A stretch of 64,000 bases of DNA from Spirochaetae bacterium HGW-Spirochaetae-1 (lineage in GTDB: Bacteria; Spirochaetota; UBA4802; UBA5550). Positions 57,724 through 62,347 of this stretch are shown piece by piece. The position numbers were made by a program, and so were the translations under genes. The stretch lies in assembly GCA_002839375.1 (NCBI GenBank), contig PGXY01000008.1, positions 62,001 through 126,000 on the forward strand. The letters run 5' to 3'. Position 1 is the stretch's first letter. Each line of letters begins with the position of its first letter. The notes under the pieces were generated by a model. That model saw nothing but the letters and a program-made list of their open reading frames with translations. It searched no databases and was not told where the DNA came from.

Positions 57724-57930
57724 ATGTCACAGGCTATTACGAAGGATATGACCTTCGGTGAACTTATCCAGAGATTTCCCAAGGCGGCGCCGGTTCTCGG
57801 CAGATACGGGCTTCACTGTATCGGATGCCATATCGGCGTCATGGAGACCATTGAGCAGGGCGTCAAGGCTCATGGTATGGATGATGATACCGTGGTAAAA
57901 ATTATCAATGAACTGAATGAGAATGCGTAA
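57724..57930 (+). CDS. DUF1858 redox-disulfide protein
   Basis: Protein of 68 residues of the DUF1858 family, associated with hybrid-cluster proteins. The CxxC motif is in GLHCIGCHIG (residues 32-35). The fold is a four-helix domain (ITKDMTFGELIQRFPKAAPVL ... MDDDTVVKIINELN). It may carry electrons or sense NO/redox. GGGGGG precedes the ATG and a terminator follows. Confidence 0.9.
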   Translation: MSQAITKDMTFGELIQRFPKAAPVLGRYGLHCIGCHIGVMETIEQGVKAHGMDDDTVVKIINELNENA

Positions 57931-59701: not shown

Positions 59702-61849
59702 TTAAGTGCCACTCACCAGCACCACCGTGGATAACTTCTTCACATAATACCGGTTCTCCGTCAGGGGCTCTTCCCTGCCGGCCCCGGCAATATCATGGGG
59801 CGCGGAAAGCGATGTATCCATGGCAATCTTCCATGGTGCGCCCGACGGGGCAGGGGGAATCTCGTAGAATTGGCTTTCATCCGAGGCGTTGAATATAAGA
59901 TACAGGTCCGCATCGCAGGCCCCGTATTCGGTCTTGGCGTACTTGCCGCAGAGGAGCGCGGCTATGGTCCGGCTCTCCTCGGTCCAGTCGGGCTCATTGG
60001 ATTTTACGCCGTGCCAGGTGATGTCCGGGACGGAAAATCCGTCGTGGGCGTTGCCGGAAAAAAATTCGCGTTTGCGCAGCAACGGGTGTTCCTTCCTGAA
60101 TCGCATTATTTCCCGGGTAAAGCGGAATACCTCGTCGTTTTTGTCGCGGAAACTCCAGTCTATCCATGAGAGCTCATTGTCCTGGCAGTAGGTATTGTTG
60201 TTCCCCTGCTGGGTTCTGCGGAACTCGTCGCCGGCCAGGAGCATGGGGATGCCCTGGGAGAGAAAGAGCGTGGCCAGGAAGTTCTTTATCTGCCGCAGGC
60301 GCAGTTCCTCCACGTCGGGGTCCGAAGAGGGGCCTTCCACACCAAAATTGTCGCTCAGGTTGTAATTTTCTCCGTCGCGGTTTTCTTCTCCATTGGCCTC
60401 ATTGTGCTTTTCGCGGTAGCTCACCAGGTCGTTCAGGGTGAAGCCGTCATGGCAGGTGATGAAGTTGATGCTGCGGCAGGGCCCCTTTTCGGATTTTTCG
60501 TAGAGATCCGAGCTCCCGCAGAGCCTCGTGGCGAAGGCCCCGACGCAGTTGGGATCGCCGCGCCAGAAACGGCGCACGTCGTCGCGGTACCGGCCGTTCC
60601 ACTCCTGCCAGCGGCCGGGAAAGTCGCCGACCTGGTAGGCACCGGCGGCGTCCCAGGCCTCGGCGATGATCTTGGTATTCCGCAGAATGGGGTCCTCCTC
60701 AATGTGTTCAATAAGAGGGGGATTGCTCAGGATATTTCCGGCCTGGTCTCGCCCCAGTATGGAGGCCAGGTCAAAGCGGAACCCGTCGATGTTCATCTCC
60801 ACGGCCCAGTACCGCAGGCAGTCCAGGATGAAGTTCCTTACCAGGGGGTGGTTGCAGTTGAAGGTATTGCCGCAGCCGGAGTAGTTCCTGTAAAGCTGCT
60901 TTTCGTCATCGAGCATGTAATAGATGCTGTTGTCGATACCCCTGAATGATATGGTGGGTCCCCGGTGGTCCCCTTCGGCCGTGTGGTTGAAGACCACGTC
61001 GAGTATGACTTCGATTCCGGCATCGTGCAGTGCCTTTACCATCTCCTTGAATTCCACGATCTGCAGGCCCATGGCCTCTGTCGAGGAGTAGGCCGCCTTG
61101 GGCGCAAAAAAGGCCATGGTGCTGTATCCCCAGTAGTTCCTCAGCCGTTCCCCTGTCTCGGGATTTACATTGATGTTCTCGAACCCGTCGAACTCCTGCA
61201 CGGGAAGAAGTTCAACGGCAGTGACGCCCAGTTCTTTGAGGTAGGGAATTTTTTCCGTTATGCCCTTGTATGTGCCGGGATATTCCGTATCCGACGATGA
61301 ATGAACGGTGAAGCCCCGGACATGCATCTCGTATATGATCGTATCGTGGGGCGGCGTGATGAGCTGACGGTCCTCGATGATGTTCTTGTTATCGATGACG
61401 ATGCTCCGGGGCACATAATATACACTGTCCTCGTCGGAGATAGACAACTCCGGATTCTCCGTGTTGATATCGCATCCCCGTGCCTTAGTCAGGTCCCAGA
61501 TGAAATTATCGGTGACGGCCCGGGCGTAGGGGTCCAGGAGCAGCTTGTTTTTGTTAAACCGGTGTCCCCGGAGGGGATCATGGGGCCCGTCGATCCGGTA
61601 TCCGTACTGTTGTCCTTCCCGCAATCCTTCTATCCAGATATGCCATATATCGCCGGTCTTGTTCAGGAACGGATCAAGTTCGATTTCTATATACGGCGCT
61701 TTATGCTCCTTGCCGGAGAAGAGGACCAGTGTTACTGACGTGGCATTCCTGCTGAAAATTGAGAACTGAACGCCGTTCGAAACGGTATCGGCACCCAGGG
61801 GAAGGGGTGAGCCGGGGCTTGTTATTAATGTTGCTCGGTCCAACAGCAT
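59702..61849 (-). CDS. glgX: Glycogen debranching enzyme / isoamylase
   Basis: GH13 enzyme of 715 residues that cuts alpha-1,6 branches of glycogen. An N-terminal CBM48 domain (SPLPLGADTVSNGVQFSIFS and the following strands) precedes the barrel. Catalytic residues are the Asp in NIDGFRFDLAS, the Glu in KIIAEAWDAAG and the Asp in ITCHDGFTLNDL; VILDVVFNHTAEG is also conserved. Length is typical. It is 30 bp downstream of the DUF1573 gene on the same strand. The ribosome site is modest. Confidence 0.95.
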   Translation of the reverse strand: MLLDRATLITSPGSPLPLGADTVSNGVQFSIFSRNATSVTLVLFSGKEHKAPYIEIELDPFLNKTGDIWHIWIEGLREGQQYGYRIDGPHDPLRGHRFNKNKLLLDPYARAVTDNFIWDLTKARGCDINTENPELSISDEDSVYYVPRSIVIDNKNIIEDRQLITPPHDTIIYEMHVRGFTVHSSSDTEYPGTYKGITEKIPYLKELGVTAVELLPVQEFDGFENINVNPETGERLRNYWGYSTMAFFAPKAAYSSTEAMGLQIVEFKEMVKALHDAGIEVILDVVFNHTAEGDHRGPTISFRGIDNSIYYMLDDEKQLYRNYSGCGNTFNCNHPLVRNFILDCLRYWAVEMNIDGFRFDLASILGRDQAGNILSNPPLIEHIEEDPILRNTKIIAEAWDAAGAYQVGDFPGRWQEWNGRYRDDVRRFWRGDPNCVGAFATRLCGSSDLYEKSEKGPCRSINFITCHDGFTLNDLVSYREKHNEANGEENRDGENYNLSDNFGVEGPSSDPDVEELRLRQIKNFLATLFLSQGIPMLLAGDEFRRTQQGNNNTYCQDNELSWIDWSFRDKNDEVFRFTREIMRFRKEHPLLRKREFFSGNAHDGFSVPDITWHGVKSNEPDWTEESRTIAALLCGKYAKTEYGACDADLYLIFNASDESQFYEIPPAPSGAPWKIAMDTSLSAPHDIAGAGREEPLTENRYYVKKLSTVVLVSGT

Positions 61850-61879: not shown

Positions 61880-62347
61880 TCAGGGCTTCACGCCCAGTAA
61901 ATCAAGCATGAGGTCCTCCGATTCAGGGAGGCTCTCCTTTCTGCTACGCCGGGCATCCCCGGGATTTTTCTCCGGATTTCCGTCATGAACAGCGGCTGTA
62001 ACGGTCAGTACCACTATATTCCTGGACGGGTCATTGCAGTAGACATAAATACTTTTATGCAACATGTTATCGCCGTGGCCTGTTTTTAGCGTAATCTCGA
62101 TTTCCCCCCTGCCGCCGGCAGGGATTACACTCTCGGAAAGGAGAGTGCCGGTGCAGCCTCAACCGGCCCTGACTTTCTGTACTATCAGGGTTGCCTCTCC
62201 CGTGTTGGAAAATCCAAAGACATGGACCAGTTCGCTTTCGGGCTCAACTATGCCGAAATCATGGCTCGTCTGATCAAAATTAATTTTTGGTGTTCCTGCA
62301 CAGGATACGAGAATCAATGCTGCTAAGATAAAAAAAAGTCTGTTCAT
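61880..62347 (-). CDS. DUF1573 lipoprotein with in-frame TGA at the conserved Cys (candidate selenoprotein)
   Basis: Read through TGA 62161-62159, this gives 155 residues. A lipoprotein signal (lipobox LVSC, Cys16) leads to a DUF1573 Ig-like domain: INFDQTSHDFGIVEPESE, GFSNTGEATLIVQKVRAG, then TGA, then GCTGTLLSES, VIPAGGRGEIEITL and the KSIYVYCNDPSRNIVVLTV strand. The family motif is Cys-Gly-Cys-Thr; here the TGA takes exactly the first Cys (U63-G-C-T). The 31 codons after it stay open and on family. A 7-bp stem-loop begins 11 nt after the TGA. Either selenocysteine, or a point nonsense mutation. Confidence 0.6.
62128..62147 (-). promoter_or_regulatory. Stem-loop after the TGA, possible bacterial SECIS
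   Basis: On the minus strand: CACTCTC, loop CTTTCC, GAGAGTG, a 7-bp perfect stem whose loop begins 18 nt after the TGA, within the usual distance for bacterial SECIS elements. The loop lacks the G expected in its first two bases, so the match is partial. Confidence 0.4.

Follow-up and report, generated by a model that had tools for sequence, protein, structure and literature searches.

The window, that is, the whole 64-kb stretch of spirochaete DNA analysed here, carries on its minus strand a gene (61880–62347) whose product is, by our reading, a selenocysteine (Sec)-containing DUF1573 lipoprotein. The frame opens with an ATG at 62347, runs for 62 codons to a TGA at 62161–62159 and continues in the same frame to a TGA stop at 61882–61880. 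With the internal TGA, its sole interruption, translated as U, the protein reads MNRLFFILAALILVSCAGTPKINFDQTSHDFGIVEPESELVHVFGFSNTGEATLIVQKVRAG-U-GCTGTLLSE... The original prediction had described two minus-strand frames of one phase split by a single TGA, and this was confirmed, read-through giving 155 residues including the putative Sec at position 63 (U63). The read-through protein matches Pfam DUF1573 (PF07610) over residues 22–119 with an E-value of 2.7e-20, above the gathering cut-off (72.6 versus 26.1 bits), and the TGA lies inside the match. By inspection, its N terminus is that of a lipoprotein: a signal peptide (MNRLFFILAALILVS; 62303–62347, minus strand) precedes an LVS-C lipobox, with Cys16 (62300–62302, minus strand) as the predicted lipidation site. 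The domain match and the lipobox thus uphold the proposal of a complete, lipid-anchored DUF1573 protein, and the lipobox is looser or missing in several relatives.

Alignment with 30 relatives places the TGA (62159–62161, minus strand) in the column of the invariant first Cys of CGC, just as had been proposed for the first Cys of a CGCT motif; the putative Sec is therefore position 1 of UGCT. Its partner in the U-G-C pair, Cys65 (62153–62155, minus strand), two residues past the TGA, is likewise invariant in these relatives. Directly downstream of the Sec gene lies a glgX-like glycogen-debranching gene (59702–61849, minus strand), identified by sequence inspection. In five families, 28 genomes in all, the Sec gene directly precedes glgX, and we treat this linkage as conserved synteny without a mechanistic reason. 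Elsewhere in the window, a small ORF on the plus strand (57724–57930) looks DUF1858-like by eye and contains Cys residues (CIGC). Since DUF1858 also figures among the listed selenoprotein families (with CxxU), this ORF would be a Cys form of it.

We then followed the codon through a main sample of 46 genomes belonging to one order of Spirochaetota. The TGA form of the gene is present in 32 of them, always with TGA at exactly this codon, and neither TAA nor TAG was found there among the 35 intact genes; orthologues of the Cys form at the same glgX locus (G001, G008 and G031) have a Cys codon instead. Downstream of the UGA, pairwise dN/dS ranges from 0.16 to 0.38, indicating purifying selection, and dS is lower downstream than upstream in 10 of 10 pairs, the pattern to be expected under additional constraint on the RNA. 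The original prediction had argued that random nonsense mutation would rarely strike just this codon, and had named other stop codons or downstream decay in relatives as signs against it; the recurrence of one TGA in 35 intact genes goes beyond chance, and the intact genes show neither sign. The idea that the TGA reflects an error of sequencing or a pseudogene created by nonsense mutation has a negligible probability. Decay does occur, for example in a copy of G045 that has gained an extra in-frame TGA and lost the second Cys, but the same TGA in 32 genomes and the purifying selection behind it speak against this idea, and conservation of the TGA rules it out for the family.

A tree of 35 Sec and seven Cys rows requires four changes between the two forms, two of which are forced by well-supported branches, so Sec/Cys exchange likely occurred more than once. 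Outside the order, no TGA form was found in a wider sample of 393 Spirochaetota genomes. Scans for further relatives returned only one spirochaete locus and one Cyclobacteriaceae locus from genome contigs, nothing from viral contigs, and, from plasmids, no more than DUF1573-like sequences of 27–37% identity in Bacteroidetes records.

The machinery for Sec decoding is complete in the genome of the window. All of selA, selB, selC and selD, whose presence the original prediction had named as something to check, were found: tRNA-Sec (anticodon TCA), selA and selB are clustered within 3.5 kb, and selD, like fdhA, itself carries an in-frame TGA (Sec-selD and Sec-fdhA). Within the 64-kb window as a whole, ARAGORN and Rfam detected no tRNA or RNA family. 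All 32 genomes with the TGA gene have tRNA-Sec, and none of the seven members of the order without a convincing tRNA-Sec has the TGA form; among these seven, G008 has the Cys form and the other six have no gene. One of them, G039, probably decodes Sec, since its selD and fdhA contain in-frame TGA and it is only 69% complete, which leaves six members apparently unable to decode Sec. With G039 counted as a decoder, the TGA gene occurs in 32 of 40 decoding genomes and 0 of 6 others (Fisher p about 3e-4, uncorrected for relatedness).

That a suppressor tRNA inserts a different residue (Cys or Trp) at the UGA, or that read-through is regulated, appears very improbable. Cys is indeed accepted at the same position in the Cys orthologues, but the tRNA-Sec/selA/selB cluster is canonical, the UGA of selD and of fdhA are each followed by a SECIS hairpin, and many genes of the same genome end in TGA. 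Reassignment of the code was also considered and ruled out, for TGA is an ordinary stop here that ends 15 of 40 long frames in the window. Moreover, the UGA of the DUF1573 gene is accompanied by hairpins that are absent from the Cys homologues tested.

Two hairpins follow the UGA. Hairpin 1 (62127–62148, minus strand) has 8 bp, the G-less loop CUUUCC and a folding energy of −12.1 kcal/mol; it corresponds to the stem-loop noticed originally, and the remark that its apical loop lacks the usual early G proved correct. Hairpin 2 (62106–62124, minus strand), which was missed at that time, also has 8 bp, with the loop GGC in the apex GCC-GGC-GGC and a folding energy of −13.7 kcal/mol, and is proposed as the SelB-binding part of the SECIS. 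Hairpin 1 formed shortly past the UGA in 28 of the 28 sequences first folded, starting 10–14 nt after it in most genes, as do the selD and fdhA hairpins. Its register varies between relatives, mostly in 3-nt (whole-codon) steps, its stem sequence is wholly different in L015 (GATCTGTTG-tatc-CAGCAGATC), and its loop is mostly G-less (UUUC-like). Hairpin 2 keeps a fixed place (loop at nt 46–48) with a pattern like CCYGCC-GGN-GGCRG, and its loop begins 42 nt after the UGA.

An RNAalifold consensus of the ungapped 66-nt alignment gave only weak structure and did not recover hairpin 1, owing to the register shifts between genes. On account of these shifts, we relied on synonymous-codon shuffles and on counts made per register. 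Compared with the shuffles, hairpin 1 is more stable than expected, with a mean z of −2.8 and p<0.05 in 28 of 35 genes, and so is hairpin 2 (mean z −1.9; p<0.05 in 19 of 35). The same shuffles showed no excess stability of either hairpin in three Cys homologues. In the main register of hairpin 1 (18 sequences), there is little variation in most pairs, and covariation is accordingly weak. In hairpin 2, base pairing between columns 42 (third position of a Pro codon) and 52 (first position of a variable codon) is kept in 33 of 35 genes (UA in 16, CG in 13, GC in three and UG in one, with two failures); this covariation partly tracks clade boundaries, and the GG bases of the hairpin are also dictated by a conserved Gly codon. 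Two exceptions are L026, which has kept the UGA and lost hairpin 2, and L034, whose hairpin 1 is only weak.

In the published bSECIS model, a G stands within the first two loop positions and the UGA-to-loop distance is 16–37 nt (PMC13188914). Both hairpins resemble this model in being stem-loops in the coding region right after the UGA, and hairpin 2 has the early loop G. However, neither hairpin combines the G and the distance: the required G is usually missing from hairpin 1, and the hairpin 2 loop, at 42 nt, lies beyond the range. The SECIS match is thus imperfect, as was originally suspected. The SelD SECIS of these genomes has the apex UCC-GGN-GGA with the loop GGN 17 nt after the UGA, and the FdhA SECIS has GCC-GGUCU-GGC with the loop GGUCU at 18 nt. 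The CC-GG apex is common to hairpin 2 and these two elements and is absent from hairpin 1. If hairpin 1 is folded out, the hairpin 2 loop lies about 20–22 nt from the UGA. From the shared apex and this distance, we infer that the SelB-binding loop is most likely the one on hairpin 2 (apex GCC-GGN-GGC) and that hairpin 1 would act as a spacer, absorbing about 20 nt and leaving an effective UGA-to-loop distance near 20 nt, close to the 17–18 nt of selD and fdhA. We give about even odds to such a bipartite SECIS, in which the spacer hairpin folds some 20 nt away and brings the distant GG loop to working distance.

A second way to read the RNA keeps the selenoprotein and makes hairpin 1 alone the SECIS, with a lineage-specific G-less loop, hairpin 2 being a secondary pausing element or a reflection of coding constraint. 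Hairpin 1 could be the real element, for it occupies the position of the selD and fdhA SECIS, beginning 10–14 nt past the UGA in most genes, and its selection signal is stronger than that of hairpin 2. But its mostly G-less loop differs from the loops of selD and fdhA, which carry GG in these same genomes, and its sliding register and, in L015, its wholly different sequence are easier to reconcile with a spacer than with a site recognised by its sequence; we regard this arrangement as possible, at somewhat less than even chances.

Under either arrangement of the RNA, the selenoprotein reading is strongly supported by the conservation of the UGA, the complete Sec machinery, the selected RNA structure and the purifying selection downstream. 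Those refuting conditions of the original prediction that computation can address also turned out in its favour. The sequence evidence is strong that SelB and tRNA-Sec would decode the UGA at 62161–62159 as Sec, and the lipid-anchored spirochaete DUF1573 protein very probably carries selenocysteine there. The original prediction had proposed a new selenoprotein; the selenoprotein part holds, but the family has been published. Sec-DUF1573 corresponds to OS_HP2, listed with pfam07610, the motif UxC and two sequences (PMC2398784), and its Sec motif is given as UGC in later work (PMC9312934, PMC13188914). In PMC9312934, OS_HP2 is referred to a paper on a deltaproteobacterial symbiont of Olavius algarvensis (its ref. 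63).

NCBIfam also holds a model for this family, NF041425 (“OS_HP2 family (seleno)protein”). It matches all 30 aligned members with E-values up to 1e-5, and the window protein with 5.7e-21 and 74.7 bits, below the curated cut-off of 100. Judged by this sub-threshold match, the window protein is a divergent spirochaete branch of the known OS_HP2-like family. The branch shares with OS_HP2 and NF041425 the DUF1573 domain and Sec at position 1 of UGC (UxC/UGC), and differs in belonging to Spirochaetota, in standing directly before glgX and in its lower score. It also has two hairpins after the UGA, an arrangement that, on computational grounds, would mark it as a variant of OS_HP2. In the literature examined, we found no description of the spirochaete clade, its hairpin arrangement or its genomic contexts.

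The mature protein is predicted to be an Ig-like beta domain held at the membrane and facing the periplasm. The predicted fold (core pLDDT near 80 in the best model, mean 63.7, built from two aligned sequences only) is not that of thioredoxin, and in the model U63 and C65 stand at the start of a strand. The closest folds are 2qsv and PapD-like domains of the HYDIN/VesB type. PDB 2qsv, an uncharacterised protein of Porphyromonas gingivalis, is the closest solved fold (Foldseek E 2.9e-6, TMq 0.51) and also a profile match (E 0.0053), but is only 19% identical to the window protein over the aligned part. U63 and C65 would probably form a selenenylsulfide or dithiol-like pair, and this pair would probably exchange electrons or hold a soft metal or metalloid ion. 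A redox role of the U-G-C pair, as originally suggested, is plausible.

Six genomes possess a second Sec-DUF1573 paralogue (L036, L116, L117, L118, L120 and L121; in the wider sample L162–L167), which is monophyletic on the tree (100/100) and is not at glgX. Pooled over these genomes, not every one of which has every gene, its neighbours include ArsR-type regulators, an ArsP_1 permease, VKOR-DsbA fusions, DGC proteins, DsbD_TM and thioredoxin-like genes. Some genomes also have SBF-family (ACR3-like) or LMWPc (ArsC-like) genes beside it, the names ACR3 and ArsC being readings of the Pfam matches plus context. G045, whose glgX-locus copy (L123, G045:C234) is the decayed one with UGR for UGC, still has an intact ars-linked Sec paralogue. 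Two further copies off glgX (L033 in G007 and L115 in G004) share another context, a protein without a Pfam match and a lipoprotein-like ORF.

The arsenic-type and disulfide-exchange neighbours of the second paralogue are consistent with a role of the family in periplasmic selenol exchange or in metalloid handling. Binding of soft metal or metalloid ions, As(III) for example, is rather unlikely to be the main task of the U-G-C pair in place of redox cycling: the ArsR-type regulators, the ArsP_1 permease, the DGC proteins and, in some genomes, the ACR3-like transporter or the ArsC-like protein point to binding, but the VKOR-DsbA, DsbD_TM and thioredoxin-like genes of the same clusters favour thiol/selenol exchange, and the window copy adjoins glgX, not an ars-type cluster.

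Taken as a whole, the explanation that we hold with high confidence is an OS_HP2-like Sec lipoprotein with a SelB-decoded UGA, a proposed two-hairpin SECIS and a U63–C65 pair that would probably exchange electrons or hold a metal or metalloid ion. It extends the range of a little-known selenoprotein family, Sec-DUF1573, into an order of Spirochaetota; there, standard annotation would probably cut the gene short at the UGA. Sec and Cys orthologues at one locus offer a well-sampled natural test of how far from the UGA the SelB hairpin may lie, and the same genes are a case for testing whether an inserted hairpin shortens the path between the two. Genes of this kind would escape published one-hairpin models if the bipartite SECIS is true. 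For the function of Sec-DUF1573 proteins, a testable lead comes from the paralogue with its arsenic-type and disulfide-exchange neighbours.
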